A stretch of DNA of 64,000 nt, from assembly GCA_030062745.1 (NCBI GenBank), contig CP099841.1:24865398-24929397 (forward strand), given 5' to 3'. This DNA comes from Capitulum mitella (taxonomy: Eukaryota > Arthropoda > Thecostraca > Pollicipedomorpha > Pollicipedidae). Below, piece by piece: positions 5,379 to 32,317 of this stretch. The stretch's first letter is position 1, and every line of letters starts with the position of its first letter. Below the pieces are notes generated by a model. The model was not told where the DNA came from. It searched no databases and was given only the letters and a program-made list of their open reading frames with translations. The translations under genes and the position numbers were made by a program.

Positions 5379-6812
5379 ATGGAGGACAAGGACGGCCTCT
5401 GGCGGGAGGCCGTCGACTGGCTGACAGAGTTCGGCGTGCTGCCGCGCGACCACCGCTGCTGCCTGCCGGACAGCAAGCTCCTCGACCTGCTGTACACGCT
5501 GCGGGACGGCGTGCTGCTCTGCCACCTGCTGCACAAGATCGACCCGACCTCCATCGACCTGAAGGATGTCAACCTCAAGCCTCAGATGGCGCAGGTCGGT
5601 GTGCGCGGCTGCGGCTCGTCGTTTGTGCGACGTGGTGTTGCGTTGTAATTCGGCATCGCGTGCCCGACTCATTTTGCGTGCCGCTGTGGCAGATCTTGCC
5701 TGAAAGGCATAGCAGAACCTGTGGACTACTCGTCACAGGTGTTTTGGTGCTGTCGTTCGCTTTCGTGTGGCGAACATCGTGCAAACCGGCGTCAGGCTAG
5801 CCACGTTCATGTTTACGCGCGCACGTGCGCGCCGGCGGCACCACGCGGACGCGAGCAATAACTCTGCTGTTTGCCCAGCTCGCGATCGTGCACACGGACC
5901 TGCCTCGGGCGGCGAGTTAAAGGTCAATGTAGGACGGTCGAGCCAGCTCGTAAATGACAGTCATCAGGCCGTGACGCCGCCGTTACGGCGCCACGGCCGG
6001 AGCAGTTTGATGTCGTTTGCTCGGCGCCTGGGGACTGGTTCAGGGGCGTCCGTGTCGACATTTTGCTGGCAGTGACGACACCCGCGAGGAGACTGGAGGA
6101 AATTGCATCTGCGCAGATTGGGTTTCCGGGCAGTAGGTTCGAGACGGCGCTGCTAACGCTGTCGTAGCGTCCCGTCGCAACCTTTCGGTACAGCCGAGCT
6201 GCGACGTTGTTACTGCTCGGCCTCGTCCCGTAAAGGCCACTGAGCCTGGCCAGCTGCTGACGGACTCCGTGTGTTTCAGTTTCTCTGCGCGAAGAATATC
6301 CGGGTGTTCTTGACGATGTGCAGTAAACACTACAACATTCGCGAGTCGGACCTCTTCGACCCGAGCATGCTGTTTGACTACACAGACTTCGGCAAGGTGA
6401 GCGGGTTGGCGGCCCGCCGCGCGCTGCTGGGACGCTTCAGGTGCACCGCGCCGACCAGGATAGGCCGATCTGACGACCACTCTTATCGATCGAGCAGACC
6501 GTGTGAAAGGCTACCTGCGCTAATCCGGTGACGTCGACCATCTGTTTTGACGCGGCCCCTGGTTATCTTTGAATCAGCGATGTTTTCACGTCATCGGCTT
6601 GAGTCGATGCGTCGGAGCAATGCGATTTGCCTGCCTGCCGCCTGCTGCGATGGCCCCACGCGGGGAGGTGCCACACCGGGCCTTCAAAGACGGCTGGCGC
6701 TGTCCGGTACTCGTGCGGCAGCGACTCCGACTGAAACGGACTGTTTTCTCCAGGTGCTGCGAACACTTTCCATCCTGTCCCGCACGCCGAAGGCGCTGGC
6801 GAGGGGCATCGC
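5379..6812 (+). CDS. Vav: Vav exons 1-3: calponin-homology domain
   Basis: Three exons (5379-5594, 6280-6396, 6754-6812) encode residues 1-131. Diagnostic stretches are LRDGVLLCHLLHKIDP, DVNLKPQMAQ, FLCAKNIRVFL and DLFDPSMLFDYTDFGKV, which align without gaps to the CH domain of Vav family members. In Vav this single CH domain packs on the acidic, DH and PH regions and contributes to autoinhibition. Exon 3 ends in phase 2. Donors and acceptors are consensus (GTCGGT, GTGAGC, GTGAGT). Confidence 0.96.
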
Positions 6813-9800
6813 GTGAGTAATCTAACTGAACCCAGTTGTAATCTAACAGAACCTGTCGTTACATCACCCTGGCACTGGTGACAGCAGTAATCACAAGGCT
6901 TTGAGGCACTAAGTTATCTGTCATTTCAACCAGGGCGGATCAGTCTGACAAGGATTCGTCTGATGAGTTCCCAAAATGGGTTCCTGATTCGATTCCTAAA
7001 AATTCAACAGGTTAAGTTCGCGCCTGCTTCTGCAATTCGATCACGATTGTGGAAAACGAACAGCAGGCGGACATACTGAGGGTAGCCACACTATTTGTTC
7101 ACTACAGTCAGTCTGTCGGTGGGTGATAGCTGCACAGGTGTCCTGAAGTGCATCGTCTCCTATCATCATTGACCATTGTGACTTGACGGGTGTTAGTCAA
7201 CTTTCACTTGATGCCATAGTATCACCATCTTTTACCCAGTGGGTTTCGAAGCTTGGCTCACCGGAACAGAACGCCATTGTTCTTGGGAAGGTGCGTTAGC
7301 CGTGTGTCAGAGACAATGTCTAGCAGCTGTCACGCCGTTATAATTGGGTTCTAGTGAAATGACGTATACCAGGTGGTATCGGCCGAGATCAACGTTAAAC
7401 CCGTGACGACCCAGGGGTTCCATTGCAGTCGCCCGCGGCCGCCGTGGCGGGCAATTTATTTTCATGACGTTGGTGTTGCTATCGACGACTTCTTTTTGTG
7501 GCCTGCAAACATTGGAGCCTGGTTCCCGGGTGCTGGCTGGGGGGGGGGGGGGGGCTCAGAGCGCGGTAATGGTGGTGCGGGTATCGTGAAGATGATGCTG
7601 GCGGTGTCGGAATATCTTTAATTTGATTTGGTCCACGTTGGCTGCGTAATGGCTGGACTCACTTCGGCGCCCCATCGCACTGAGCGGCCAGCCAGCCTAA
7701 GACCAGACAGTCTGGGACGGTATTGTCACGCTTGTTGTCAGTCAGGGAGTGTGTAATCTCTCGATATACTCTGGCTCGGCGATCAGTACACGAGCGTGCA
7801 CTTGAAATCGAGGGCTTCGAGTGATGACCTTGTACGGATGACTCTTTCGATTCTTTACGTCGTGGTAGATTGTTCCAGTTGAGTATCGTGAATTGGGGAG
7901 TCTTTACATTGCGGGTTACTGCCTCTGGTCGGAATTATATATGAATTTGATAGTGGACCAAAATCCAAACAGTCGCAGTTGTCCACAACCAGTTGAGTAC
8001 GCTGGCAGCAGAGCTGCGTTTACAAAACGGTTGCGTATGGCTGTATGCGTATTCGTATACGTATTCAGCGGTGTACCGACGTAGATACGCTTGACCATTG
8101 TTGCTGGGAGTGAGCAGCCTTGTCCGCACGGAGGTGAACAATGTGCCCTTCGCCCTCTTTCCAGCGGTTTCCCCCGCAACGCGGACCAGTCTGCGGCGTT
8201 CGAGGAGCCCATCTACCAACACCTGGACGAGGAGGCCAAGTGAGTACCCGGAGTGGCGCTCCACGCCTGGCGACTCCCACGGCGTCCTGTCCGTCCCGCT
8301 GGCGTCCGCGTGGTGACGTGAGCTCGGCCGAGACGACCTGTCCGCGAACCGGCTGCGTCCCCCGTGCTCGATCAGCTGGACCGTCGCGGACCCGAGCTGG
8401 CTCCGTGTCGGCGCCGCTGCGGCGACCCGAGCCGGCCGCGGCGGTGACACCGGAGCCGTCCGGCGCGCCGCGGCCGGGCCGAGGGCCGCTCAGGGACGAG
8501 CCGCCGCCGATGTCGCGGTACGGCCCATAGCCGGGTCCGGACCCGGCTGACGGCGCCTGGCTGGCCCGCTCCCGGGGCCCCGCGCCACCCGTCCGGGTCC
8601 GGACAGTCCGGACAGCGAGGCAGCCCCGCCGCGGCAGGGGGCTGCGCTGGCCACGGTCGAGGTGATGACATCGGCGCCTCGGGGACGTCCGGCTGACCGG
8701 CGTCATTGTCTCTGCGCTGTGGTGGCGCTCCGTCCCGGACGTCTGACTCACCGTGACATGACATGACAGGGATCCTCCACCTGTGCGTCGGCCAGTCTGT
8801 GCCCGCGCCAACTTATTGGAAGCCCTCCTCCCTGCGTGGCCGGCTCTGTGTTGCTCTGCTCACAGCGCCAGTCCCCATGCAACCAGGGCATGCCTCTGTC
8901 CCGTGCCGCGAGCGGTGACAGGTCCTCGGCGCCTTGCCGGCCGGTCAGGGACCTCCCGGCGGGCTCGCTGTTGGCTCGCCGCACCCTCCGACTCCGGACG
9001 CTCTGTGTCGTGTTCAGGCGGACGGTCGTGCTGGCAGGAGCGACGTTTAGGACCACGCGAGTCGGCATCTGATCGCGAAGTCATGGCATAGGCTTCTACC
9101 GGACAGTGGTCTGTGGCACGAGACTGATTCAGCCACTGACAGAAGGGCCTGTGACCAGGAAGTATTTTGGTCGGGCTGTCGTCCGTTCGCACCACTGCCC
9201 GAGAAATCATGGCATGTTGATGGACATTGAGCCTTAGCTTACGGTGCCGTGAAGCACCTGGCTGTCAATGATAATGTTCTGCGACGTCTGTGGAAGTCTG
9301 TGGGCTCATTTATCGAACCCTGTACTCAGATGTAGTTTGTTGTTGATTAAAAGGGGATCAGCCAGCGATTTAGGACGTACCTCGGTCATTCCGGAAAATC
9401 AGATAAGCCCAGGGTTGGCTGTTCGCCAGTTCAATGAATAAACGTACACGAACGAACTGTTCCCGAATAGGCGTGTTCGCGAACAGTTGAAGTCGAGAAC
9501 GAATACAAACGGACAGCAACTGTTCGCGAACAGTTCGTGGACATGAAACCTTGCAGTTAATTGACGATAAATGTTTTTTTTTCTTTGACATTCGGGGCTG
9601 TTGCGGTGTTGCGTGATTGCTGCCATGTTCTTGCCGTGTGAACTTTTCATTTCACTCGTTTCTGCCCATACAGAGGCGTTGGTCTCGCTGTTTGTATCGT
9701 GTGCGCACTCGCCAACGCCCGGGACGTCAGAGCGGCCAGCCAAGCTGCTGAGCTGAGCGCCAAAGCGACGACGAGAAAACCTGAAAACTGCATGACCAGA

Positions 9801-12800
9801 AAACGTATATTAAACGCCACTGTATATTGCTTGTGGCAACATCTCCTTCCATCCAACGCCAACTTGCTCTGCCTGGACGGTGATCTTTCCTGACTGAGAC
9901 GTGATTAAAATTTGGCCATTTCGTCATTCGTCCGCTGAGGCCCGTGCATTCCTAGGCAAAACTTTGCCTAATTTGCCAATAATTTAACCACATATTTTTT
10001 TTTGTTTCGTTCTGAACGTACGGAAATTAACTATACCGTTCAGCACCACATTAGCCCAGTTGGTAGTGTAACTTGTTCAGTCGCTGTTGGCGTTCGCGAA
10101 CAGTTCGCAAAGTATTCGCGCGAACAGAGTTTGTTCTCGAGCAGCTGGCCGGCCGGCGGCGAAGTCGCAAACGAACACTGACGAACAGCGGTTCATGAAC
10201 TGTTCACGAGCTGTTGGCGAACACCCAGCCTTGAACACGCCGAGCCAGTCATGAGTTATATGTCTGTGACGATTCGTAGGGACTTAACCGATCGGTACCG
10301 GTGACTTATAACGTACGTGGCAACGACATGTGCAAATGCACACCGCGGCCGCAACAGCCCGCCACCGCTGCCCCTCACCGGTGGCCGGGGGCCGCCGGGC
10401 GTGCGTTGAGCGTGTCCGGCCGGGTTGCAGCGTCGAGGACCGGATCCTGTCGGACCGGCTGCGCAGCCACCTGACCCGCAGCCGCTCCAACGGCAAAATG
10501 GAGGAGAACATTTACGAGGACCTCTGCTATGTGTCGCTCAAAGACAAGGTAGCCGCCCGGGGCAGTTCCGAACGCGTTCGGAATGGTTCTTTAGCATTGC
10601 GTCGGCCTTGGCTGGCGAGCATGTCGGGGATGTGTGTGTGCACCTCCTTGGCGGATGATTCCGCCAAGTCTTTTTGGCACGGCGACGCGCCCGGAGAGCG
10701 TAGCGGCAGAGCGTCGCTGTCACCGGCGCATCGCTGCGGCCGGCGCTAGTTAGCGAGCATGAGTTCAGCGAGCGGCCAGCGTGGCTCCCGCGGACGCGGA
10801 GGCGGCCGCCGCGGCGACTAACACGCGCCTGTACACTCGGCGACGAGGAGCGAGGCCCGCACCTCGCGCTCTGCCGTCCGCCGCCGTGACCCGGGCTTGG
10901 CCGGTCTCCGGCCGGCGGCCGGGCCGGCCGCCGCCGCCGGGGCCGGTCAATACGGCGCCCGGCCGCCGCCGACCGGCTCGTTACACGGCCGCACCTGGCG
11001 GCGTTTGACGCCGCTCCTGGCCGGCCCGATTGGCCGTGACCGGCCGCTGCCGCCGCCGCCTGCCCCGCCGGCGGTCCCGGAGCGGGGACCGCGGACGAGC
11101 CGCGCTGCCGACCCTGTCGTCGGACGCTCACCGGCCGATCGGGCGAGCAGGGCCCGGATAGTGAATCCCCCTTCCCCCTGCTGGTGGCGCGCCATTCAGC
11201 ATTGGTGTTATCTTGTTCCGCATGCCTCCCGTTTGGTTTTAGTTTGGTTTCGGAGATGCTGCCTGATGACTTGCACTCTGCGCATTGTTTCAAGCGTAAC
11301 CCAGCCTGTCTTTCGTGCGGCACTAGGAGACATGCTGCGATGCGACAGCCAGGTATTCACCGTTACTTTAAATAGCATTCCGAGACGCCTGCAGCGCCTG
11401 TTGCAGAACGCCCTGATAAATACGCCTGCTCATCGCACCCGCGTCTGCCCGTCCGGCGGCTGGCTGCGGCCAGCTCGGAATGGTTGTTGCGTTGTGGGAC
11501 GCGGCTGCGGCCGCCGCCTGCACGGTTCGTGCCGCCGTAGTCGCCTGCCGCATGCGCGCCCATGTCTGAGCCGCGCCGTTTGTGCATGCAGCGAACACGC
11601 GTACGACAGCTTCAACACCGACTACCACGTGCTGTCGCGGTCCGTGTCCCACGGCGAGGACATCTACGAGGAGCTGACGGGCTTCCAGAGTCGACCGCAG
11701 GTAACCAGGGCCGGGTTGGGTTCGGGTCGGGTCGGGTCGGGTCGGGTCGGGTCATCCGTTCGCCTCACGCCGTCACGGTCGCGGCAGCTGCGGGCCGGTG
11801 GTCGGTCGCGGCCCAGGCCGCCTAGCCAGGCGCGGAGAGATCGAGGAGCGCTTGCCGACTCGCGTCCGATACGTGGCCGGCGTGCCCGGGAAGGAATTAC
11901 CGTCCGAGATATTTTCGTTTCGAGGAACGGTTCTCGGTGCCGGTCGATGCCGTTCCGGAGAGCGCTTTGCGGTGGAGTCTGTGAACGGCATCTGGATGTC
12001 TCAGTTTTGTAACGGGAGATAGTGCGGCGCTCAGCAGCTGACGGCATCGCTGGAATCTTCTCGCTGCGACGGCCTCGTCACGTGAAACGTCTGCCGAGCG
12101 CGCCGGGCACGTCGGTGTTTGTAAATACCATTACAGCTTTGTTTCGGAGGCGTCGTAACGGATCGTTGTGTAGACTGTTCCGGCGAGTGACGCCGGTGCT
12201 TGCGTGACTGTCCGTGTCGCTCGTGACGCCCGTGACGACCCGTGATTGGGCCGAGAGTGCCGCCGAGCGCGGCCGACTAACGCGCTCGCCGAACGACAGC
12301 CGGCCTCGTCCAAGGCGCCGCCCGAGAAGCGCGACTACTGTCTGAACGAGCTGCTGGAGACGGAGGCCAACTACATCTCCGTGCTGGAGATGCTGCGCGA
12401 GAAGTTCATGGAGCCGCTGCGGCCGTTGCTGGGGCCCGAGAACACGGTTATCGTGTTCCATAGGATCCAGGTACGGCGGACGACCGGCGAAGGCCACCGC
12501 CCGGAGCGGGGAGGCCTCCGCCCGGCACGAGGCTGCGATGGTGGCGTGGCGAAAAGCTGCTTAAGCAGTTTTCAGCGGTGATTGTACTCAGACAGACACA
12601 CTGATCCATTGTGTAGATGAAACACGGTGAAGGTTCGGAAATGCCTCATTGATATTTCCGACTTTTGAGGCTGCTCGTGTGCTGAGCAGGGCATTAATCG
12701 CGCTTATCTCCCTGCGGTGTGCCCGAACAGGACCTGGAAGAGATCCACAAAAAGCTGCTTCGCGAACTGCGCGAGGCTTGTCGGCCCGACTCGGCCACGC

Positions 12801-15800
12801 GCATTTCCAGCGTGTTCATCAACAACAAGAGCCGCTTCCTGGTATACGGCGAGTACTGCTCCAACCTGCAGCCGGCCCAGGAGCTCATCGACGAGCTCTG
12901 CGAGAAGGACGAGGCGCTCAACCAGAAGGTGATGGTAAGTGGACGAGGCGGTGCCGCTGGACGGCAGAGGAGCGGACGCCGCTCCGCGAAGTAGGCGCCG
13001 GCGCGAGAGAGCGTGTCGCCGTTTACTCGCGGCCTGGGGAGCTGCTGGCGAGGCGCTGATGAAGCCGAGGCCCGTGTGGCCACACGTCGCGCACATTCTT
13101 CCCCTGGGACCACTGACGGGATATGACCGTTTGTCGTCCAGCCTCTGACATGAGACTGCTGACCGGGGTTTTCCGTCCAGCCTCTGGCATGGGAAGACAG
13201 ACCGAGACTTGTCCGCTTTCAGAAATGCCAGATGGATGCCAACAACGGCAAGTTTAAACTTCGAGATCTCCTGTCCGTTCCTATGCAACGAATACTCAAG
13301 TACGAGATTCTCCTGAGAGAACTGCTCAAGCACACGACGAAGGTGAGTGCGAACCGTTGGTGTCTCGTTGCCTTCATGTTCGTTTGCAGCGGAAGGTTGT
13401 CTCATAATGAAAAGTTCCGCGTCGGGCGGATGGTGCAGCCGTTGACTTACCATACTTAGCATCAGTTCTTGTGCACATAGATCTCTCGGTCGCGAATGGC
13501 ACTACATCGATTTTGTGTCCTTTATGTCGTAGGATCACGGCCGCACACTTCTGTTCGCTAATGGGAAGCCTACCGATACCCGTGATGAGCGCTGTTGGTG
13601 TTAGTTTCTTTACATTAACCTGAATCCGCCAGCGCCTGTTTCAGAGTCGGATGCTTTTCCTCCTTGCTGCTCCTCGCGGTGAATGTGTGCTGTCGCTGAG
13701 CCCTGTCTTCTGACGGTCATTGCTTCCTGTCTGGGACCGAGACGGCCGTGTCCCGACGGCTGTTTCTGGCTCTCCGTGCCCGCCGAACCAGCTAGGCATT
13801 GGCGACCCTGTCTGGTGACTGCTGTCGTGTGACTGCTGTTCACTGACTGCTGAATGCCCCTGTCCATTGCCTGGGCTCTGGATGGTCGTGTCCGCTGACT
13901 GTGGTGTCTACCGACTGCCAGCTGGCTGCCGTGTCCGCTGGCCGCCAGTGTGCTGACTGCCGTGTACCGCGTCAGCTGACCGGCATATCCGCCGTGTCGG
14001 CCGAGTGCCCTATCTGCAAGCTGCCGTGTCCACTGGCCTTTGGTCTCTTGGCTGCAGTTCTCGCTGGCCGTCGGTCTGCTGGCGGGCGTGCCCGAGCTGT
14101 TGCGTCCAGTGATTCTCGTGTCCGTTAACAGCCCTGTGCAGCTCCGGCGTCCGCTAAATGTCAAGTCCGCCGCGGACATGAGACCCCTGTGTCCGCGGCT
14201 TGTGTCCGCTGCCTGCCATACCTGCTGACTGTCGTGTATCGCCCAGTCGACGCAGCACAGTGACGACCACAGCGGCCTGGAGCGGGCTCTCAGCGCCATG
14301 CGAGACGTGGCCGAATACATCAACGAGGTGAAGCGAGACAACGAGACGCTGCAGATCATCAACGACATCCAGGTGCGCCCTAGATCCCGACCCTTCCGTC
14401 CGACACCTGGACTGCCGAGGCCTCTACGGCAGTAGAGGCCTCTGGCGGGCCTCTAGGCGTCGTGTGGCCTTTGTGGGCCAGTTGTTCTCGCCTCCACCCT
14501 GACTCTTCCTTATCACCTGACTCGGGCTCTAGAAAAGCCCCAGTGGTCTCGGTCATGGCATGAGGATGAGCCTTCAGATTATGTGAATAAGTAAACAAAA
14601 TTCCCGTGCGGTCCGCGTCGCAAACGCGTGGCAAGTGTCTCAGTTTCAGAAGGTTGTCTTTAGTGTGCGTTGACTTGGTTTGCCCGACTTTTGGCTGTTT
14701 GGGAATGCAACTGGCTTGATGGCGTCAAAGGACCCAAGTGAAGATGGTTTTGTCTGTCAACCACCTGACCATTGGTCTTAATTATTGCTCGCACCAAGAG
14801 CATCGTACGAATCATGGTTAACTTCACGCTGCGGTCGTCTCGACCAGAACTCTATCACCGACTGGCCGCTGGAAGAGGGACCGGTCCGTTCCGTGAAGGA
14901 CTGCGGCCGCCTGCTGAAGGACGGAGAGGTCAAGGTCAAGTGCCACCCGGAGAACAAACTCAAGCTCAGGTAATGCCTGCGGACCACGTGTTCACGAGTT
15001 GCCGCTGCTGGTTTGTCTCGCCTTCCGTGCGTCGACCTCTTTTCGTGGCTAAAGTTGTTACTTCCGCCTTAGCGTCTCTCATTTGGCTGTCCGTGCATAC
15101 GTTCGGTCATTTTGTGTTTCTTTTTAGATGCTACGGAGCTTCAAGTGTCCCGCATTTTCTGCAATACCAGGCCCAGCTCTTGCGTATCCACCGATTTTCC
15201 CGATTTTCTTTTTGTTTGTGTAACAGTTGCGAGCTATACGATTACTCTAATGCATTCAATTCCTTTCAGATATGTGTTCATTTTCGACGAGATCTTTTTA
15301 ATGTGCAAGTCCACTAGGGTAAGTCAGTTTTGACGTTGAGCATGTGCACGCTTGTGAGACGTTGTTGGAATCTTTTTGGATACTGAATTTTGTTTCTGGT
15401 AATTTATAGCCGTTTTTGTGGTGCACGAGCCGTGCCCTTATAGCATGCCTCGCGCTGGATGTGCATGGAGAACGGGCCTGGGTATGATCATTGCCATCTC
15501 ACGAGAACAAGTTCTCATGGCTGCTGGCTATATTGATAGCTGTTAGACATCTGCCATTTGCTGTAAATATGTGGAAACTGTAGACGTGGACGGTCACTTG
15601 GGGCATTCCTACCACCCCAGAGGGTCATTAATTGGTTTTGGTATCCGTAATGAATTAGACATTGTTCTCTGCTGGATGGGCGTGCTCCATGATGCACATT
15701 AGACGTGATAGTCGAAAACGTCCCGAGGTAAATTCGGCGATGTTTTGGAAAGTGTGAGTGGGTTATGATCTTTTTATCACTTAGTTGCACGTCTCGAAAC

Positions 15801-18800
15801 ATCGTAATTTATACTGAAATTCGCAGTACTATTTTCATTTGGAATGTTTCACTGATGGATGTCTTTCACAGTTACGTTCGTTCTGGATGGGGTAAACATT
15901 TTGCGGTGCCTTCTTATCCAGTGAGGACGTTGTTGCGTTTTTGTGTGTTACTGGCATTGTGTTGACGTTTGGTCTTTCAGACGTCGTCTGAACTTTGTCT
16001 GAGTAGGTCATTGGCTCACCAGTCTCGAAGCAGACCGCAACATTTGAGAAGTTGTGGGGCTGATAGAAACCGAGCGATACCAGGGATCAATGAACATATT
16101 TTAATAAAGCACCCGCATGTTTTGATTTATATGGGACGCTTCTGTACTACCGCGTAGGCGTGCAATGGATTTTGCGTTATTGCAGTTCAACAGTAAACGG
16201 CCATCGTTGAAATGGAATGTGCGAGCGGCTATGGGCCCGTGATTCCTAAGCCATTGAACAAAGCTTCTGTATCGCCGTGTGTGAATAAGGGGCCAAGATT
16301 GCCTGCAAATCGACCAATTCCGTAGATTGGCATGTAGCAGTCATAGCCCATAGTGTACTTGGCTTGAACTGACGATGTCTTTGATTATCTTAAGGGTGCT
16401 AGTGTGGGAGGAAGGTAATGTTCACATGTAATCACGTTTCACGGGCTGTGTTGGGCCCGTCTGCAGACATTTTCCGCACATCTTAGACGTTGGAGCGGTG
16501 CTAAAGAGGATCCTGGTGACATGTTCGTGAGTAGAGGGACGCTTTTCCCATTGGAGTGGGGTGAAACACGAGGTGCATTCATGGTTTTCTCGTGGTATTT
16601 GTACGCTTTCGTGGTGTTTGAGGCACAGTCGGCTATCAAAAACGTCGCTTAGTTTTGGCTTTCTGCCTTGCGCTGGGGACGTGATCGTGTCCTGTCGTGT
16701 ATGCTTTTATCCCGATATTAAGCTGGTTGGATTCGGAAGACAAAAATGTAAAAAAAAAAATGGGGACACAGCGATTTTTCTCGGAGGGTGGACAAAAATT
16801 AAAGACGCACAACACGTGTGACAGGCGTGCCGCATCTCCAGCGGTCTTTTTTCTCTTCGCCGTGTATTCGAGCTCCAGGAGTGGCCTTGAACCGCAGATT
16901 TCCTTACGTTGATGGGCATTTGGTTCCCCGAGACATTTGTCACCCTCATAGGGCACCTGGAAAGCTGGAGGCTTGTTTGCCCGCCCAGTCTCGGCTATTC
17001 ACACTCAGAGACCGCATTAGTAAGCTGACCCGCACGGGGTCCGTGTTACGACCCTGCTGTGCCTGGCTGGGTTCCCAGAATAACCCTGTCCCCGTGGAAT
17101 GGGTCCCCATGGTGGCCCAGCTGCCCGTGGATGGACCCGAGTGATGGCCGTGCCGAGGTCTTTGTGGCGGCCCCATCACCCATCATCACGCCCATGTCTT
17201 GGGCGTGATCGAGGCGTGATCCGTGGTAGCCGCGAGTCTCACACCGGGTCGCAGTGCCCCTCTCTCCGACACTCTGCTCTGCCCCGGGGTGGGGGCGGAA
17301 TGGGGTGCCGACGGCGGGACTGTCGGGAGCCGGCGTTAAATCATGTCGGGACTGCGTGGGCTCCCCGTGGACAACCCGCCCTCTTCCGATGCGAAATCGA
17401 TCGCGGCGAAGTTGCAAAATAGCGGTGTCGTTTGGTCGGTGTCCGAGCGGTCCTTTCGAGAATGACAGGCTGGATGTGGAACTCAATATACATGCTTGAG
17501 GCTTTCGTATTGAGGTGACCAAAGGCTTTCACCCTATTGCGGGAGACGACGACGACCCACGGCGTCCGATGCGGCGCCTGGTCCAGAGGCCGACGGCAGC
17601 TCTGTGGACGTGATATTCCGTCCTGTTGTGGTCATCGTGCGCTTGGCCGCTGTTTTGTCCAAATCAGGCTTCGCATGTTTGGCTTACTCGTTTCTTCAGT
17701 CGCTCCGTTAGACTGGCTGTGGGTGCTTGAGCCCTGGGTTGATGTAAGACTTGCCTTTTGTTTTGTCGACACATTCGACGTTTTTTGTCAGTGTAAGGTT
17801 TGGTTAGTCGTTTTGCGTTTTCGCAAATTGTGCAAAGCTGCTCTCCTAAAGTCTTTTTTTTGTATTCACTAAATGTGTTCGATGTGTCAGGTAGATAAAT
17901 GAGTCATCATACCGCGATCGTCGTAATTCTAGGCCGATTGATTGATTGCTGGGGCTTAAGAACGCTCCGACGTCTTGGTCATTTGTCACCCATTATTACG
18001 GTAAGCGAGACATACTATGAGTCGTCTGACCATCCTTCGTTCCTCCCCTGCGGCGCCAGATTGTGGAGAAGATGTTCTGGGTAAGCCTGCAGCCTCCGAC
18101 AACACGTAGACCTGTGAAAGTCGGTCCCACTCTGACGAATAGTCCGGCCTTTCATCTTCTTTTGTGGTATTGCTGCGGTTCAGTACCGCGTTATTTAAGT
18201 CAAGGCAATGTCAGATTCTCCCTTCATTCCCAATGAACAGCATAGGAACTTCTAAAATTCACTGAAATGTCGTCTGATTATAAGGTGAAGTCAGGGGATG
18301 ATCCTCGGAACTGCGACAGGGTGGCGGGCATGTTCGTCCACACGTGTCTCATCACGTCGGCCCGTTTGGTGTATCATGTCGCCCGTTCCGCCGGGTTCAG
18401 TCGACTGCTGACCTCCAACAGCTGGGGCTCGATGGGAGTGGCAGTCGGAAGGAAACGTGCAGAACAGGATACAAATGGACCTGGTAACTGCAGTCCCCGC
18501 ACCGCGGCCCCGACCTGACGCTTTGCAACTCCTGACCGTGCCCAGGTGACAAACGCGACCTTCTGCTCGACTGACTCCGGGAATGCGGCTTTCTTACCGC
18601 TGCGCTGACGCGTCGCTGTTACTGCCTCCCCTGCCGGCGTCGGCCCCTCGGCTTGCCCGTGACCGCGCCCTGTGGCTGGCTGTGCTGACGACCGATTCGG
18701 CGCCGCTGTGACCGCGCCTCGCTCTGAACCTCGGCAGGGCGAGCAGTACTGCTACAAGGACTCGCTGAAGATCCGCGACTTCCAGCTGGACGACCCGCTG

Positions 18801-20421
18801 AAATCGCAGAAAACGGACACCCGCTGGTCGCACTACTGGTACCTGGTGCGCAAAGACAAAAAGATCGTCTACACACTGTACGCCAAGACCGATGAGATGA
18901 AGCGCATCTGGATCAAGGCGCTGGAGGAGGCCATGTGAGTGACAGGCGCGCGGCCACGCGGCCGGCCGGGACGGCGTGGTCTGGTTCGGCATGATTCGAC
19001 CGCTGCCCTCGGCCGCCCCACGGCCAGGCACGGCCGGTGGTGGGCGGTGGACGAGCCGAGAACGGGAAGGGTTGAAACGTGGGATGGATGCGCTACGTCG
19101 GCGCTTGACGTCTCACTACACCTCAGCCACGGGGGAGGGGGCGGGGGCGGGATGTGAAACGTTAGGCGCGTGTCAAGCAGAGTGAGCCCACCACAGCAGA
19201 AGGGCCTGGGCCGGTGGCGTCAGGTGCCGCTGACCCGTGCCGCACGGTTACAGTGATCACGTGAACCCGAGGGAGAACAACTACACGGACCACGTGTTCT
19301 CGTTGGCTACCTTCAGCCGGCCGGAGGAGTGCGACACCTGCCTCAAACTGCTCAAGGGCATTTTCCTACAGGTGAGACCCTGCTGCGCGGTACGATGGAG
19401 CTGCTGCCCCGCCGCTCAGCTGTCCGGCCGGATTGGCTCGGTGTTTTGTTAAGTGACTGGTTACGAACTCGTGATCGCAAATATAAAGGAATTCGCTCCC
19501 CGGGTGGCGTGGGCAGTACGGCTTGAAGTGTGTGAAATGCATGCGTTAGTTATGGCTTTTATGTCTTAAATTTGTATGGCTTATATATTGTATAGCTCAT
19601 TGTCTACGCGAAACAGTGAGGTATGAAATGCGCGAAATCGGAATCGGAATTGGGATTTAAAGTTAAACCATTTTCTTGCAATATCAGTCCATTTCTGGCC
19701 CACTGCTAGCGTACGGACCTAAGATATAAAAAGCAATGTCGCCATTAGCGGTGACCATTTTGTATTCGTTCCTGGACGATGTACGTCTATCTGTGCAAAT
19801 CACCAGAAGCAGTGCAGATCGCACCGTTGTACCGTGCACCTGCCGTCCGGTGGCCATACTGACCCGGCACAGAGCGGCCACCTTGCCGTCCTAGGCTACC
19901 GCAGCCGGCTGCCGTGCACGTCCGCGGCGCCGTGCCGTGCGGCGTGGCAGGAGCGGCAGGTCGGGGTCGTCCTGGCCGGCGTCGGACAGTGCCCTGTGTC
20001 TCAGTCCCGGAATCTCCCCCCTGCCCCCCCCCCCCGGCTGGACGATCGTCCAGCACTTGACGGCCCCGTGACGGGGACGCGACGCCCCTGGACTCCGAGG
20101 TGGACGTGTCTGGCGTCGACGGCAGGGTTACCAGTGCAGCCAGTGCGAGCGGAAGGCGCACAAGCACTGCATCCGGGCGAGCGGCATGTGCGGCGCCCGG
20201 CAGCCGCCCAGCCTGCCGCCGCGGCCGCCGGCCGGCGACGACAGCGACCTGGACGTCTGCGCCGTGCAGCTGCCGAGCCGCGGCCCGTCCCACCACCAGG
20301 TCAGCTCTGTCCCGCTCTGTCCCACCGCCAGGTCAGCACTGGCCCGCTCTGTCCCTACACCATGTCTGCATGGTCCAGCTGATCCCCGCACCAGGTAACT
20401 TGGCGCGTGACCAGAGTGAAT

Positions 20422-20493
<72 letters not shown>

Positions 20494-23400
20494 GGGGGTA
20501 GTGTGCGTGTTATCCAGCTGAGGAGTCTAGTTCGAACCAGAGCTTTTGTTTAGTTTAGCTTATTTATGTGGTGTCCATCCTTGCGACCACAGTTCTTTCA
20601 GGACATCACCCTGCAACGGCTTAGGAAGGGATACAGGGCGGTGCTTTGCTGTCTTCCACAGAGTGGGACGGCAGATATTGCTCTCGGGTATCTGGGGGAC
20701 TAATGGACACATTTCGGCAGTTTAAATGGCAATCGATAGCCCACTTGACAGCTCATGACAGACCCATTTGTTGATCTAAGGTCATCGATTACACCGCATG
20801 TGAGATGAAGTTCGCCAAATGGACGGTAGTATCCATAGAGCTTTGGAAGCACACTGACAGGGTAAGAGTGATCCGCATGGGCAGATAGTGTCAGCTGGTC
20901 GCGTTTTATCGTGAAAATATGCTCCCTGCCGTTGGTCGTGGTACTCAGCCATGGTATGAGACTCGGCGAAAAGAGAGCTGTGGTGGGTGTCTGGCAGCCG
21001 CCTCAGTCGCTGCTTTCATCAAATTGATACGTATCGAGGGAGCTATTTCGGCCCCTGGCAACGCGGTCGTCGCCGAAATCTGATCGTGGGTGCGCCGGAA
21101 TCTCGGCAAGCGAGCGATCCCGCCTACACGAGTCCCAGCGGTGTCCGATGGCTGCACGTGTGGTCCTGTCTGCATGCTGATCGGTCTGTTGGCTTTCAGA
21201 GCTCTCCGGTGAACGGCCGCTACGCCGCCCCGCGCACGGTAAGACCCGGCCCCGACCCCGGCCCTGGACCTGGACCTGGACCTGGCCCCGTCCCCTTCCC
21301 CTCTGTGGGATGATTCGTCCGAAAGTGCGGTGGCGTGTCGTGGTGGAAATCGCAGAAACTGGTGAACGTCACGTTGGGTGTGGTGCTGCTTCGCCACCGT
21401 TTTTGTGTCACGGGGGATGCTAATTTACGATGGTGCGTGTCCTGACCATAGGCTGTGGCATGTGATATGACTGTTGTCATTGATGATACTGTTGTCATCC
21501 TGATGGATGGAAAATCCCTTCTCGTAGCCAACGCATTGTTTATTGTGACCTTGCGCCGGGTTCTTTTTTAAGTGTACAACATTATCCCTGTGGTCTTTGT
21601 ACATCCCCCATTATCATCATCAGGTTGATATATTTGTTGAATTCGACCAGCAAGCTGACCCACATGGTGGTCGACCTGTCGCCTGACCGGTCGTGCCCGG
21701 TGTCCGGCAGCGGCCGTCTTCGCTCTCCGGCTCGCGCAGCTCGTCCTTCTCCACCAGCGTGGGCGAGTCGCCGGCCGTCACCTCGCCCGTGTTCTCGCCT
21801 CCCGAATACGTCAACCTCAGCCTGGAGGTTGGTCGGTCGGCGCCGGGCGGCCGCGAGCCACGGGCTGCGGCGGTCCGGCCGCTGGTAGCTGTGGCTGTTC
21901 TGGTAACCGCCGCTGAAAGCTGTGGCATTCACGTCACGGCAGATCGAGCACCCTCATTTTCTCAGATTATGATGAAAATGGGTGCGAGAGGTAATCTTGG
22001 GCGCCAAACACGGGTGATGGAATATTTCACCTCTCAAACCAGTGAGTTGTCGACTCTAACCATTGAAGCTGTTGGTCCGTATGCGTATCTTGGACAGTAA
22101 TACTGGCAAAATTTAGTACAGCAGTGTACCAAAATGCACTGCCAGGTCGCAAAATGTTCAAGGAATCCAATAACTGTGTCCTCAGGAATTTGTACAATTG
22201 ACCTCGCGACCTAATGCGCCGTGACGTAGCATAACCTTAAGCTAAGCAAAGTATTATCTTATGTGAGAAGAAAATGAAGACTCAGTGAATTTGATTGTTA
22301 TGTAAACAAAAAAGCTGGATTTTTATTCATTTATTTTCTTTTAATTTAATCCCAAGTTCTATTTTAAATGTCATTTACACGATGGAAAGTTCTAGGCACA
22401 CGTTTTCGCCAAACCTTTTCACCTGAGTTCTTATAGTGGTAGATAAATGTCCTAATCCAGATGTGGCGCGATTGCAAGGTGCAGTGGGAAGACTACGCCG
22501 ACGGATCGTGACCTGCATATTAGGTCATCGTAAGAACGGAATGGGGAATGCCAATGCGGTCCAGTTTACGGCTTGTTTCCAGCGAAAGCCCATCCTGATA
22601 ATCTGCCCCAGCGGGAGAGGGGGCAAAAAAGCCAGAAAGGGGCAATTTGAATCATTCTAACTTCGATGTTTATTGACCGAGTTTGATGCAATTGACATGA
22701 ATCGAGAGCTAATCAATGGTGTTCTTCTTTCGGCCCACACGTTTAGACTTTTGGAAAAATTTATAGGCGTTTGCAGGGCTGGGTAGATAAGAGAAATGTG
22801 TTTTTAACCGAATTAATAGAAAAGTTAAGAATAGTTATTAAGCGTTTTCTAATCATCCTGTATTTAGGAAACACAAATTGTATTGCATTGTTCGTATAAT
22901 TTTTGCATAGGCGGCGTCAGGGATATGGAAAGGGGGAACTGTCATTGTCGCGTGTTCGTCAAGTTAGCGTACGACCTTTACCTCGTATAACCTCAGGTGA
23001 CTTCAGAGTCGGATGAAATGACCTGTGTTTGAAAACATTTCCAGTAATTTGATCGGGCCAAATTTCAGAAAGTCCTGTTTGTGACTGTCGTGATGCAGGA
23101 TATGCTGGGGGACATTTTACGTCATAGTTCCTTAACCTGACCTAATGTCGACCTGACACTGGAAACACAAGTAAAGTGTACTGTACCGAACTTCACGTGC
23201 TCCGAATTTCCTGTATAGGAAGTAAATGCCGAAAAATTTACATAAAACGAAATCATGACTGTTAACCTTCACCTGACCCTTTTAAGGTGCTTCATATCAA
23301 CAAAAATATTTTTGCGCGTATGCCCATTTATTTACCTATTTATTCATCTTAAGTTTTAAGCTCTTTTAAAAACGTTGGTTTTCATAGACATTTTCCTTTT

Positions 23401-24365
23401 ACGTTCAGCAGTGCCAGAAATTTCCGGTGTCTCCCAAAAATGTAGCCGGGCTCCGCCCATGGACAAGAGAAAATCATGAAAATCTGACGTCATACGTAGG
23501 AAGAATGAATAGGAAAGCGACCAAGTCTCGCGACCTTTCTTCAAAAACCCTCGAAATGACGAGCGAAGGACCGGAGGGGACTTCTGAAGCCCCCCCCCCC
23601 CCCAACGAGCACAGGGTTAAGTGGGGTTGGTAACTCTGGTTGAATTACTTAACAATATCACATAGGGTTAAGTATTTCGTCGCAGCAGCGACCAAACTGA
23701 CTTAGTTTGCGCCAGACGTCGTGCCAAAGGACAGTTAGTGGCGCTCTGCGACGGTGACGTGACGCACGACTTTGGACTTTGATCTACGGAAGTCCAGATC
23801 CTGGAAAACGGAGAACGCCACCGCGACCCGGCTCTCAGGCAGTCTTCATCCAAAGCAGCACTAAATAATGGATAGCGACGATATCTTGAGTCCGCCTCTG
23901 TGGCTTCTCTGGTGACCTTTGACCTGGGGACAAAATATAAGGCACATATGCAATGAAGCGCCGCAGCGACCGACTCTCTGGGCAGTTCACCACGCACAGT
24001 GATACCAAATGAAAGTTGTGGGTGAACGTACCCGCGTCCATTAACCTTAGGAATGAAATATTGCGCCAAGGAGGTAGAACGCAGCAAGGGCTAACTACCT
24101 ATGGGGGGTATGTTTCACCCAGTGGTACAGATGACATCGAAGGAGCGAGCGTCACTCGTCGCGTTCGCATTTACGTGTTTGACCAAGGCCTATACGAGGC
24201 GGAACGTAACGACAGGACGTTCGGTATCATCAAAAATTCTGTAAATGCTCGATTGCCTTTTGTCTTCTGTGTGACTTTAAAATGTGGTGGAAGGAAATAT
24301 ACGCCGCGGCAGAAGTCGCGGCAAACGAAAACACTTCATTGCGTACGGTATATATATTATGTATA

Positions 24366-24428
<63 letters not shown>

Positions 24429-27400
24429 ATTATGCGAGGCCTATGCGTTACGCACTGCAGCCGCCAAAGCACAGAAAAACTACCTGAAATATTGTGTTCC
24501 GCAGCAGTGGCGTGAACTGGCGACTTATGACGGCCGTACTGTGGTACAGATGAGGAATAGTGAGTGTAAATTAATTTTGCTCAGTTATGAATAAACGGAC
24601 ACCGAAGGTTGGATTAAGCGAATTCAGTCATGGTCGGTCACGGGCAAACCGGTGGGATGGAATTCAAGGAATTCCGCGCTTTACATTGGTCGGAATCTCG
24701 GCAGCGCCTTATTATTCGTCTGATTCATTTTATGCCACATACGTATTGCATTACTGTATTGTATTGTGACACGTGCGGATTCTCGTTTAACCAACAAATG
24801 TTGACAAGAAATGCCTTGGGCGGACCCAGGCGATGTCCTAAGGGTGGAGGAGGTAAATTTCCATCCGTGTGACTTAACTTACCGCTAAATGTTGATTGCT
24901 TCTTGGATTTCGGCCACATTGCTTCGCCATTTTCATAAATAACGCGCGTGTAAACAAAGTTTCGTTTCGAAAACAAAATATCCACAGCCCTCATGCGGAG
25001 AAGAGGGGGAGCAAAAGACAGGTTCGTCCCGGGTTTTCCAACGAAACGGGGCCATGGCTTCGATGGGCTCCCCTTGGATCCGCCAATGAATAATGCACAC
25101 GATATACGGCGGAGAAAAGACGAGCTTCCAGAAACGATGGAAATAGTGCCAGGATTAGGCACGGAAATACAGGAGAAGGATATCATGACGGATGCTCAGC
25201 CGATCACTCCTGAGATGCCGAAGTCAGGCGTTTAATATTTAGGGATGCGACCAAAAAAACTCGAATGCAGGTTACTGCAGCCGTTCCGGCGCCGCGCCCG
25301 ATACACCTACAAGGATTCGCAGTTCAAATTCAGCTCAGTTTAGTGTCCGAGATCTGAAGGGATCTGTCGACAAAATGTAGTCATGTGATCTAGGGTCCGA
25401 AGGGATCTTTCGACAAAACTTGCCCATAGGATCTGGGATGCCGAAGAGTTCCGAATCCAGACTTAATCCGGATCTCGGGTCGGACCTTTCAAGTTCCTGG
25501 CACATGTGTGCTCCGAGGTCACGAAGATGTCACCATAGCTGAAATTTGCGATGGGAGGCATGATTGTCCCATCACACTTTTGTCGGGTCACTGGTCAAAC
25601 GAGCCACGACACACGTGTCAAACTTATGTCAAACTTGGTACACTGGTTCTGGGGCTGGGGACTCGCCCATTTGGGGTCGCGGCTGCCTAAGTTCCCAAAT
25701 TCACCGCCAGGGGTGCTCATGTCGTTTTACGGAAATCGCTCCTTGTCGAAAACCATGCAACCTAGAGCCACCGACTGTGGTGTGCAGGTGGGCGGGCACA
25801 CAGTCTGTCGTAGCATATTATGGTGGCCGCGATGGTTTCAAGGTCATCGCCACGGGTGCAGTCGAATTTGAAATTTTCTGGTTCCTCTGACTGTTGCCAG
25901 CATCACTTATTTATGACCTAGTCTGAAGTCGCGAGGTCCAGAAACATGACTTGTTCATTACACTCGATAAAACGGTACACGTGATCACCATTGTCTGAAG
26001 TACCTTCATGTCATCTTTCGCGCCAGCACCCATTTTTTCATAAGCAGCAACGCAGTTGCTGTAGCTGCGTTCATACCTTACAAGAGGGTCGCAGATAACC
26101 CATATTTACTTCATTTTGCACGTTCAATTTACAGAGGCAAATTATGGCTTGTAATTGCTTGAAAAATGTCATTTTTGCTTGAGGTCGTACTGTGTCACGT
26201 GCCTGACACAGAGTGTCGTGCAAGTTCGGACAAGGTTACCAGGGTACGTGCGTAAGATTGACATTAGAACAAAAAATGTTGCCCAAAATGAATTCACTGG
26301 TCATTTTTGAATCCAACGGCGTAATTGTTCATCATGATTAAACTCATTTTATCCAGTTTAGCTATCAACGAAAGCACTTCCCGTGCTGTGACCAAAAATG
26401 CCAGAGGAAATAACTTTCAAACCGTAAGTCTGACGAGCCTGGAATTCGACTAGCCGTGGTTGGAAACCGAGACTGTCCGTAGGACTAATATCTATTAAAA
26501 TCCCGGGAATGGAGGTGTAAATTTGTCCTATTGACTGGTCGGTTTGTCCTGGAATGCCCCAGTTGCAAAAGCTGTCCTGTCGTTGACAGCTTCGTCCCTG
26601 GCAGCTGCGGCATCAGTGGGCATCGGAGCACTGTTTTGGCTTCTTCTCATTGGCGGTGCCGAGTTGAGAAGGGGGATGCTTGGAAGTGCCGTTCAGTCAC
26701 GTTGAACCGCCGTTTTCTCAACTCGGGCGTGATTAAATGGACAGAATGATGTCTCGGTGCGTCATATTTGTTGGGAACCGTCACGATTGAGAGCGGGTCT
26801 TACTGTCAGAGTCAGTGGAGTTGGTCGTGTCGCCGTGTGAGCCGTGCTGCCGCCTGCTGACAGGAGCAGCCCTGGTGGGCCGGAGAGATGGACAGGGTGG
26901 AGGCCGAGCGGGCGCTGGAGCACCGGCCGCCGGGGACGTTCCTGGTGCGCGTCTCGGCCGCGCAGGACAACAAGTTCGTGCTCAGTCTCAGGTGGGTGGG
27001 AGCGGCCGCGCCCGGCCGTCGGAGCGGCGGGCCGTCGGTCGCGCGGCGTGGCGCCGCCGCCGACGAAGCGGGCCGCTCCGGTGGGGCCGAGGGCACGTGC
27101 CGAGGCCCGTGACACGCCGGCGTTCTGTTGACGGTGTGCCGTGCGGTGCTCCCCGCCCGGTGGTAGATGCGCCGAGCGTGGTTTCGTTCCTGGCCGCCCC
27201 GTGTTTCGCCGTTTGTGACCTGGCCGCGGGCGCTGCGGCAGGGCCCCCGAGAAGGTGAGCCACATGAAGATCCGCCAAGAGGATGATGCCGCCGTGACCC
27301 GGTACAGCCTGAGCCCGGCGCGCCAGTTCACCTCCATCATCCAAATGATCCAGTTCTACGAGCAGAACAGCCTCTCCGAGAACTTCTCCGGGTGAGCGGC

Positions 27401-28411: not shown

Positions 28412-29829
28412 TGCGCGTCAGCCGCTGCCGGCCGGCATGTCAGTGCCAAACTCAGAGCGGCGGCGCCAGCTCGCCACTGCGTCAGCCGTGTAACGAAGTA
28501 TCGGTGTCTATGACGACCAGTACGTGCAGAGGTCATGTGATAATGTGTCCCCGCATCTCCGCTCGCTCGGCTAGCTTCTGCGCGCGAACGTGCCGTGCGG
28601 TCCACGCCGGTCCGCCGCACCTATAGTCATTCCGCCGAGTCATCGCTAAGTCATTACCTCGTGCGCCGGCCTTCGCGGCGTCCGCGGCGGTCTGCTGTTA
28701 CGTTCGCTGGGGCTGGTGGGCTCCTCGGCGTCTTCACGCGCCCCCGTCACAGGTCAGCGGAGGTCGCGACCGGTACCGCGGGCGCCGGCGCGGCGCAGAC
28801 GAAAGCGGCGCACGTGCGCTGGCCTCGCTTGTTAGCCTTTGGACAGTGTTTATGGCGGAGCCGCCGGATCGCCCTCCTTCGCTGCGCGAGCTGCGCTTAC
28901 ATCCAGTGATAATTTCGTAGCTTTTTAAACGCTCGGTGTCAGTCGTGGCCGTGCGCGTTGGACGGGCCGCGGCAGTAGCGTAGGATGTACCGCAACCGGA
29001 CGCGTGAGAGCGGCAGTTTCTCCTGTTGTCGAAATAAATGTTCATCCCACTCGTACAGCGTGTCTGGCCGCTCCGAACAGGCGAAGTGTTGTGCGACGTC
29101 CGTTCGCTGGCGGATGTGTGTGGGCTGTTTCGCGTTAACAGACACTTTGCGCCTCATTACGTCCAAGCACTGCGTTTTCCCATCTGCCGCCGATCTGTAG
29201 TTGTCTAGCTCTTCAACGATAAGTCACTCCACGTGGCTGTTGCAACGGAACCTATCCGTCCTCTCAAATCGTCGTGGGTCCCTGGATGGCTGAATTTATT
29301 TCTTCCGAGCGAGATGTACGAAGTTCCCTTCGGAAATGATGTGATGGATTCAGATGATTCCACAGCAGACGTAATGACGTGAATTAAACGCAAACTGCGT
29401 GTTTACTGGTCACTGTAACCGATCAGGCCAATTGAATACGTCCTGGGCGTAATGGGGCGACGTTTTAAAAAGTTTTCGTCCTCCCATGGTGACGGGATCC
29501 TCTAAAATGCCTTGGAAATTGGGAATTTATTGAACGAGACTATCCAATGATCTCGATCGTCGAGAAAGATATGTCGATAGCCAGGCAAGTGTTGACTGTA
29601 GTTTTCAGGAAAAACATGATCTTAAGTTATCTTAAGCTCGACTGCCAGCTATTTCCACTCCCGATGTGACAGACCATTGATACAAAAACGAGTGAGTAGC
29701 TACGCCTTTGGCTCCACGAAGATACCAAGACATTTGAAACCTTTGCTATGCAATGACGACCGCAGCTGCATCATGATTCCCCCACAACATAACGCAGGGA
29801 AAGAAGTCGTAGGTCGGTAGCCTGGCTAG
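28412..29829. other. Vav 3' flank
   Basis: GC-rich 3' UTR/flank to about 29000, then unremarkable sequence. A canonical AATAAA occurs at 29033-29038, about 620 bases after the stop, and is the best candidate polyadenylation signal for Vav. It is shown separately. Confidence 0.5.
29033..29038 (+). terminator. Candidate Vav polyadenylation signal AATAAA
   Basis: First clear AATAAA downstream of the Vav stop codon. It implies a 3' UTR of roughly 640 bases. The assignment rests only on position and hexamer. Confidence 0.4.
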
Positions 29830-32317
29830 CCCGTCCCCAACGGCGGTTTACCCCCCCGCCGAGATTTTTACAAGAGTGCAGGAGAACGAACAAACACAGC
29901 GCCACGAAAGTTCATGTACCCTTTGCTTGATCATTTTTACACCCTGCGTCAAAGTTTTGATCTTAGGTCGAGTCAGGTGCCTAACTTAGGTCAGGTCAAA
30001 CGGACCCATGTCCAAAAAATTTTAGTGCTCTGTAACTTTTTCGCAAAACAAGATATCACAATAATACTTTCAGGAATTTGTGATCTGGAGAGATGCAACA
30101 AATCCGCTATCTCAGATTTTTCGGAATTTACTGGGTCATTAACCTAAGGACAAGCCCATTTTAAAAACACGTTTTTTTCCGAAATTGGCGGAATTTTTCA
30201 AAACATTTTCAGCGTGGAGTAAAGCAGACATCTAGTTACCGTCATTGGGCAAAGTATCAATGACTTCCAGCTATTGACCTGAGGTCAGGTCACGAATAAC
30301 TGTTGTGAGCCGAAATGTACCACCGTCGAAATCAGCGATGAATTACTCAGAATGGGTAGAAAATGGCAGAACTGGCTTGCACAGACGTAAGTTATACCAA
30401 GAACCTCAAAAAGTTTTTGAAAAAATTGCGTATTTTGGAAATAAACAGGCTCTCGCGAATAAAGCTCCGCCAGTTGTGTAGATTGGTAACTAATGAATTT
30501 TTCCAAAATGTAAGCATGAAAAATCATCATAAGAACCACGAAAATCAATAAAATTTACATGGATAGGCCTATGCCGCGAAAGTAAAGGAACGCTAACATT
30601 AGTTCCCGTTAATTTCTTACTGCGTACGTCTGCGGTGCCCGCCGAAAGCCGGCGTGAGAATTGTTGCGTCTTCAACCCGCGCACGACCGTCTGTCAGTTA
30701 CGATCATGCTCGGCTGGGGGGGGGGCAGTTGGTCGCCCCTCTCTATCTCACGAACGGTTGGTCGCACGATACAAATAAGCACACCGTTGGAAAGCCTGTG
30801 ACGAGTAGAACTCAAAACTGGTCTCATTTTTAGTTTTAGATAATATGTAAGCAATTTACGTCCTATATATGTTTTCTCATAGCCGACTGCATGAGACCGA
30901 GAAACGGCCTGAATCTCAAGGTTTGTGACTAATAACGCATAGTTAAAGGCACCAGGGCACAAGTAAAGGTCCGCAAATGCCGATACACATCTAATTTCTC
31001 GGATTTGTTCAATATATGAGCCGAAACGTTGAATTAAAGACACTGCAATTTTCACGCCGGCTATCGGCGCGCGGCGCAGCGGTACGCAGTAAGAAATTGA
31101 CGGGAATTAATTTTAGCGTTCCTTTATTTTCGCGAGAAAAGCCTATCCATGTAAATTTTATTGATCTTAGTGGTTCTTGTGATGCTTTTTCATGTTTAAA
31201 TTTTGGAAACAATTCATTAGTTACCAATGTACAAAATTCGCGGAGCCTTATTCGCGAGAGCCTGTTTATTTCCAAAATGCGCAATTTTTTAACACTTTGT
31301 GAGGTTCCTGGTATTACTTATGTCTGTGCAAGCCAGTTCTGCCAATTTTTACCCATTCTGAGTAATTCATCGGTGATTTTGACGGTGGTAAATTTTGGCT
31401 CACTACAGTTATTCATGACCTGACCTCAGGTCAATAGCTGGAAGCCATTGATACTTTGCCCAATGATGGTAACTAGATGTCTGCTTCATTTCACACTAAA
31501 AATGTTATGAAATATTCCGTCAATTTCCGAAAAAAACAACATATTTTAAAATTGGCTTGACCTTAGGTTCAATGACCCGGGAAATTCCGAAAAATCTGAG
31601 ATATCAGCTTTGTTGCATCTATCAAGATCACAAATTCCTGAAAGTATTATTGTGATATTTTGTTTTCCGAAAAAGTTACAGAGCGCTTCACTTTTTTGGA
31701 CATAGGTCTGTTTGACCTGACCTAGGTCAAGCACCCGACTTGACCTGAGGTCAAAACTTTGACACAAGGTGTAAAAATGATGAAGTAAAAGGGCCGAATG
31801 ACCCTGCAGTCGGTGCGCCCTTAAGCCCCCCCCCCCCCCGATGAAGTAAAAGGTACAGAAAGCTTCGTGACTCTGCGTTTGTTCGTTCTCTCGCAATCCC
31901 AGAAAAACCTAAGGGGGGGGGGGGCGGTCAACTGCCGTCCCCCAGTCGAGGGCGGGTTAACTCAACGTTTCGGCGTATATATTGAACAAATCTGAGAAAT
32001 TAGCGTGTATCGGCATCTGCGGACCTTTACTTGGGCGTTGGTGCCTGTACCTATGCGTTATTAGTCACGGCCCTTGAGATTAAGGCCGTTTCTAAGTCTC
32101 ATGCAGTCGTCTATGAGAAAAAATATAGAGGACGTAAATTGCCTACATATTATCTAAAACTAAAAATGAGACTAGTTTCGAGCTCTACTCGTCACAAGCT
32201 TTCCAGCGGTGTGCTTATTTTTATCGTGTGACCAATCGTTCGTGAATTAGAGGGGGAGGCGGTCAACCGCCTCCCCCAGTCAGGCGTGATCGTCGCCGAC
32301 CCACGGTCGTGCATGGG
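29830..32317 (+). mobile_element. piggyBac-like MITE, family 1 copy A (interrupted)
   Basis: Starts CCCGTCCCC after CTAG and ends CATGGG before TTAG, decayed versions of the CCCG..CGGG ends and TTAA target seen in the intact copy at 56605-57823. It is split by copy B. The left part runs to about 30671 and resumes at CTCAACGTTTCGGCG (about 31961), continuous in the intact copy. Without B the length is about 1.2 kb. There is no ORF for a transposase. Confidence 0.85.
30676..31956 (-). mobile_element. piggyBac-like MITE, family 1 copy B nested in copy A
   Basis: A 1281-bp element in the opposite orientation to A. Its ends are CCCGCGCACG and GGCGGG. The right target is TTAA (31957-31960) and the left is TCAA (30672-30675), one substitution from TTAA. 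The sequence flanking both sides joins to reconstitute copy A. Insertion at TTAA with a 4-bp duplication is the hallmark of piggyBac superfamily transposition. It is non-autonomous. Confidence 0.85.

Follow-up and report, generated by a model that had tools for sequence, protein, structure and literature searches.

Whether one Vav gene can exchange by splicing the very segment that holds its protein in the inactive state is the question raised by two short exons, here named 5A and 5B, in a 64,000-nucleotide stretch of Capitulum mitella DNA (contig CP099841.1; hereafter the window). In the acidic switch of Vav, a textbook example, phosphorylation of tyrosines lifts autoinhibition, and splicing control at this position would sit directly on this switch. 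Phosphorylation of the acidic-region tyrosines Y142, Y160 and Y174 of Vav1 is needed for release of the DH domain (PMC10177506), this phosphorylation has been called sequential (PMC6767298), and the helix containing Y174 binds the DH domain at its GTPase pocket (PMC4745688); all three tyrosines are reported to occur already in choanozoans (PMC6562523). Cancer mutations at Y174, E175 and L177 increase the GEF activity of VAV1, and deletion of residues 165-174 is described in the same source as decreasing it (PMC10177506), which is a misfit with the simplest plug model.

The gene had been called Vav in the initial annotation, and its domain layout bears this out. The Pfam scan, which covered the 843-aa isoform B (with 5B), returned CH, RhoGEF (DH), PH, C1, SH2 and SH3 in this order, with RhoGEF starting at residue 206, and the acidic region could be aligned to that of human Vav1, so that the CH, acidic, DH, PH, C1, SH2, SH3 order of the Vav family (human VAV1-3 and the single Vav of invertebrates) is found here, together with the family's I-Y-E-D-L motif and equivalents of Y142 and Y174. 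The model comprises 22 candidate coding exons, 5A and 5B both counted, whose borders were set by reading the sequence with GT-AG borders chosen, and it yields a single open frame with either exon, of 846 aa with 5A (isoform A) and 843 aa with 5B. No N-terminal SH3 was detected by Pfam on isoform B, and the single SH3 region lies 3′ of SH2; the gene shares this loss with arthropod Vavs, for which it has been described along with some cnidarians and placozoans (PMC6562523), and an exon missed in the 5-kb intron 21828-26863 may bear on it. Searches for Vav relatives with the exon 6-9 (DH) peptide found none in viral contigs (7 pattern matches) or genome contigs (28 pattern matches), and Rfam gave no match at gathering thresholds. 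The features considered below are collected in Table 1.

Table 1. Features of the Capitulum mitella Vav locus, in window coordinates.
Feature	Position	Strand	Length	Remarks
Vav gene, coding span ATG to TGA	5379..28411	+		borders read from sequence; open frame with either exon
Exon 4	8165..8239	+	75 nt	phase 2 in and out; Tyr codon 8214-8216 (EEPIYQHL), Y142-equivalent
Exon 5A	10431..10548	+	118 nt	Tyr codon 10513-10515, Y174-equivalent; further Tyr codon 10528-10530
Intron between 5A and 5B	10549..11591	+		five GCATG; 10899-10948 could pair with 11776-11825, looping out 5B (weak)
TGCATG (RBFOX-type)	11583..11588	+		within the 5B acceptor region, starting 9 nt ahead of 5B
Exon 5B	11592..11700	+	109 nt	Tyr codon 11665-11667, Y174-equivalent; 11623-11625 aligned with Y160; further Tyr codon 11602-11604
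(GGGTC)x9 G-run array	11708..11753	+		first base is base 8 of the 5B-6 intron
Exon 6	12300..12470	+		start of the DH (RhoGEF) domain; stop site of both misjoined forms

Two exons of the lengths first described, 1,043 bp apart and each entered in phase 2 and left in phase 0 across GT-AG borders, were recovered unchanged. Their proposed common signature, H-x-x-SRS followed by E-x-IYE-D/E-L, needed amendment: its end is common to both exons and 5B fits H-x-x-SRS, but 5A reads H-x-x-x-SRS, and by alignment the shared peptide stretch is L-x-R-S-x-S-x-G and then E-x-I-Y-E-[DE]-L. In six frames of the whole window the pattern [DE]xIYE[DE]L occurs at two places only, one per exon. It did not arise in any of 2,000 first-order Markov simulations of 8240-12299, and the shorter IYE[DE] arose 0.0015 times per simulation, the training letters being this interval minus 5A, with 5B left in.

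By codon statistics, 5A and 5B are marked as coding. Under a codon model trained on the other exons of the gene, their true frames scored 0.82 (5A) and 0.78 (5B) bits per codon, within the 0.05 to 1.13 of the other exons, their remaining two frames scored -0.88 to -1.23, and GC3 was 0.90 and 0.92, respectively. None of the stop-free windows from the flanking introns, which overlap one another, reached the score of the exon of matching length (0 of 1,165 windows of 39 codons for 5A; 0 of 1,282 windows of 36 codons for 5B). A scan for exons between exons 4 and 6, in which acceptor-donor pairs 30-260 nt apart were ordered by their summed coding bits, at least 8 being required, and in which the splice-site thresholds (acceptor at least 0, donor at least 2) had been chosen so that both 5A and 5B pass, returned 12 candidates, with 5A ranked first, 5B second and the remaining 10 overlapping one or the other. 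A third, independent exon was thus not among the candidates of this coding-bit scan, whose cut would miss very short exons.

The two peptides are related better than chance, yet distantly. Their local BLOSUM62 score of 37 was equalled in 23 of 20,000 shuffles, and stands against a highest score of 28 for either of them with the 20 other exons; an ungapped alignment anchored at the 3′ end of the exons was matched in 85 of 20,000 shuffles. At the nucleotide level, blastn, run on the exons together with their 300-nt flanks, found five short matches, the best an intron-intron match at E 0.006 and none exon-to-exon, and 5B did not appear in the output of tblastn with 5A at E<=10. A duplication origin of the pair is therefore drawn from a short peptide match, the nucleotide similarity being undetectable, and the duplication, if one occurred, would be old.

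An alternative is that only one exon works, its partner being an old duplicate that is seldom or never spliced or is in early decay, and the splice sites give this some footing. Two of the four sites are weak, namely the acceptor of 5B, which ranks 18 of 21 and is equalled or exceeded by 21% of 974 intronic AGs, and the donor of 5A, which ranks 20 of 21 and is equalled or exceeded by 10% of 1,446 intronic GTs; the acceptor of 5A (rank 9 of 21) and the donor of 5B (rank 14 of 21) are ordinary. Uneven strengths of this kind are expected of regulated exons and equally of poor ones. Against decay, both exons keep an open frame, GT-AG borders, the same phases, the core motif and a codon usage within the range of the gene, features that a dead exon diverged past nucleotide recognition should have lost, and we consider this alternative unlikely.

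The reading frame constrains how the two exons may be combined. Joining both leads to a stop at codon 286 and skipping both to a stop at codon 171, each inside exon 6, so that a productive transcript would carry one exon, and the misjoined forms would be predicted substrates of nonsense-mediated decay. Both stops fall ahead of 15 further coding exons in the model, as they would if the frame breaks were a poison-splice switch that reduces the amount of Vav and the identity of the exon were unimportant; this explanation is quite improbable, as it leaves the same conserved motif with distinct sets of tyrosines unexplained, and a plain cassette exon would do.

The claim that each transcript carries exactly one of the two held up in part: joining or skipping both does break the frame, but within about 100 nt around the 5A donor and the 5B acceptor, 24 combinations of alternative sites would permit in-frame, stop-free double inclusion, the best of them using a donor at 10622 that scores 2.7 against 2.8 for the 5A donor itself. 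That some transcripts hold both exons, through such a donor or an undetected frame-restoring exon, and encode a Vav with two inhibitory segments is most improbable, because 5A extended to 10622, at 192 nt within the limits of the exon scan, stays below the 8-bit cut (5A alone reaches 31.9) and so does not look coding, and between exons 4 and 6 no third coding-like exon came up, very short ones aside.

Based on the frame, the shared phases, the peptide similarity and the lack of a detectable third exon, the reading of 5A and 5B as a mutually exclusive pair is well supported at the sequence level. Pairs of this type have been defined, in the description of Kassiopeia, as neighbouring exons of similar length and the same frame, with canonical splice sites and homology (PMC3923563). 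Exons 5A and 5B are neighbours of similar length in the same frame with a conserved splice-site pattern, and their peptides are homologous by the shuffling test, though tblastn did not return the pair; compared with the pairs so defined, the homology is low, and the exclusivity here is predicted. We propose that they are probably an old exclusive pair in an arthropod-like Vav, choosing between two activation settings.

What the choice would change can be read from the tyrosines. As first counted, 5A carries the core tyrosine and one more, and 5B the core tyrosine and two more. The identification of the shared motif with the Y174 site proved sound, as the motif aligned to human Vav1 Y174 in both isoforms, and the equivalents of Y174, E175 and L177 are retained by both exons. 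The Y142 counterpart lies upstream, in exon 4, where EEPIYQHL aligns to EDIYSGL of human Vav1. Isoform B aligned to human Vav1 with 174.5 bits and placed a tyrosine opposite each of Y160 and Y174 without a gap between them, whereas isoform A (166.5 bits) has no tyrosine opposite Y160, nor any between its Y142 and Y174 counterparts; its further tyrosine follows the Y174-equivalent by five residues (CYVSL). The Y160-aligned tyrosine of 5B stands 14 residues upstream of the Y174-equivalent, the same spacing as in human Vav1, and this match is suggestive and not proof, because with two tyrosines among the 25 residues before the motif tyrosine, one would fall at exactly this distance by chance in about 8% of cases by simple arithmetic; it is accordingly not certain that this tyrosine, rather than the other one of 5B, is the Y160 counterpart. 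The presence of a Y160-aligned tyrosine in 5B and its absence from 5A are the clearest difference between the exons. Compared with the Vav family at large, the Capitulum mitella gene would thus differ in having the Y174 segment encoded by two alternative exons, and in having the Y160-aligned tyrosine in one of these only.

In the proposed mechanism, a transcript would carry either 5A or 5B between exon 4 and the DH exons. Both versions keep the inhibitory I-Y-E-[DE]-L core, whose human Vav1 counterpart (with Y174, E175 and L177) plugs the active site of the DH domain, and both isoforms should therefore be autoinhibited and opened by phosphorylation of the tyrosine in this core. Eleven residues follow the motif tyrosine in each exon, so that the two isoforms place the inhibitory tyrosine equally far from the DH domain. 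With exon 4, the 5B isoform would have the full vertebrate-like set of Y142, Y160 and Y174 positions, and the 5A isoform would lack Y160 and have instead the tyrosine of CYVSL. Exon choice would accordingly toggle a three-tyrosine (5B) and a two-tyrosine (5A) switch, two activation settings of the same Rac/Rho activator that differ in the number and the context of the phosphosites needed, and may in this manner set how the GEF is switched on. From these features we infer that both exons are spliced, exclusively of each other, and that the isoforms differ in kinase or threshold behaviour.

Two further small exons of the model could vary in the transcript. Exon 4, with its Y142 counterpart, could be skipped in frame owing to its length and symmetric phases, and its skipping would remove another regulatory tyrosine. 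In the region of the PH domain, a candidate 21-nt microexon (18060-18080, + strand, encoding IVEKMFW), phase 0 in and out, is likewise skippable, and could be tissue-specific.

As to how exclusivity might be enforced, the simplest safeguard would be the breaking of the frame combined with mRNA surveillance, a safeguard that is not absolute because of the 24 site combinations noted above. Steric exclusion is unlikely, given the distance between the exons, and as for U2/U12 incompatibility, the model introns are all GT-AG, though their borders were picked that way. A TGCATG of the RBFOX type within the acceptor region of 5B is a candidate repressor site for this exon. Among the model exons, only 5B and exon 16 have this hexamer within 60 nt upstream; when the 5A-5B intron is shuffled, the hexamer turns up somewhere in it in 31% of cases, and at least five GCATG, the number present in the real intron, in 3%, a figure uncorrected for the several motifs tried. 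An upstream UGCAUG is described as repressing one exon of an exclusive pair for FGFR2 exon 8/9 and egl-15 exon 5A/5B (PMC2880598, PMC3585155), the egl-15 case being worded differently in different places of PMC3585155. The present locus likewise has the motif upstream of one exon of the pair; here the likeness is a sequence match alone. A fuller version of the mechanism, with two autoinhibitory switches, three-tyrosine 5B against two-tyrosine 5A with a new adjacent phosphosite, and with the tissue choice made through RBFOX repression of 5B, is a tentative proposal and, taken as a whole, rather doubtful. Under this version, splicing would give an animal with a single Vav some of the regulatory diversity for which vertebrates have Vav1, Vav2 and Vav3.

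Downstream of 5B, the (GGGTC)x9 array may act as a splicing enhancer or form a G-quadruplex; elsewhere on the + strand of the Vav gene, four places show G-quadruplex-like patterns, and two of these are plain G runs. Pairing between introns was considered as well. The best 50 x 50 duplexes reached -68.6 kcal/mol (intron 4 with the 5A-5B intron), -64.4 kcal/mol (intron 4 with the intron between 5B and 6) and -75.5 kcal/mol (the 5A-5B intron with the intron between 5B and 6), and none was equalled in eight whole-intron shuffles each. The latter two were also set against shuffles within 50-nt blocks, by which the local GC content is kept: the -64.4 duplex was equalled in 5 of 16 of them and was discarded as a pairing signal, being explained by composition, and the -75.5 duplex, formed by the arms listed in Table 1 for the 5A-5B intron, was equalled in 0 of 24. 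It stays a weak lead, because its arms are GC-rich and the upstream arm looks self-complementary. The longest Watson-Crick matches between the introns were 11, 13 and 8 nt and were equalled in 128, 5 and 200 of 200 shuffles, respectively. As possible controls of exclusivity, the RBFOX-type site, the G-run array and the intron pairing are leads only.

Exclusive exons that tune the autoinhibitory linker of a protein in a tyrosine-kinase pathway are familiar from exons 7A and 7B of FYN; there the exchanged part is the SH2-linker of a kinase, whereas in Vav it would be the plug helix of a GEF. A mutually exclusive exon of integrin beta-1 is described as abolishing a known phosphorylation site (PMC7954323), and there, as would be the case here, an exon swap alters a regulatory phosphosite. 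In integrin beta-1, two threonines are replaced (a change of Thr to Asn is named in this source), whereas in Vav the autoinhibitory tyrosine is kept and the helper tyrosines differ. Mutually exclusive exons and phosphosite-swapping pairs are thus known, and what would be new is such a pair at the autoinhibitory site of Vav. Among the papers listed by literature searches, which covered few subscription papers and no supplements, genome annotations or exon databases, none was found to describe alternative exons for the inhibitory tyrosine of Vav, and a word search of the main text of a review on Vav evolution (PMC6562523) met with none of 'splic', 'isoform' and 'exon'; a public genome may already list this arrangement among its annotated transcript variants. 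A gene that swaps the switch segment of Vav would reveal which parts of the switch can vary, the exchange of 5A and 5B would be a natural experiment on the helper tyrosine Y160, and the pair would point to splicing as a means by which invertebrates that have one Vav gene can diversify it.

Elsewhere in the window, a single long open frame on the + strand (48404-49774) encodes an MFS transporter (Pfam MFS_1, 9.6e-35); beyond 28500, the Pfam scan covered this frame alone among the 33 listed frames of at least 130 aa. Between it and the Vav gene, 29851-32256 is dense in inverted repeats, with seven pairs in 29500-32500 whose arms of 47-260 nt are 74-91% complementary; the set may represent a non-autonomous mobile element or foldback elements nested in one another.
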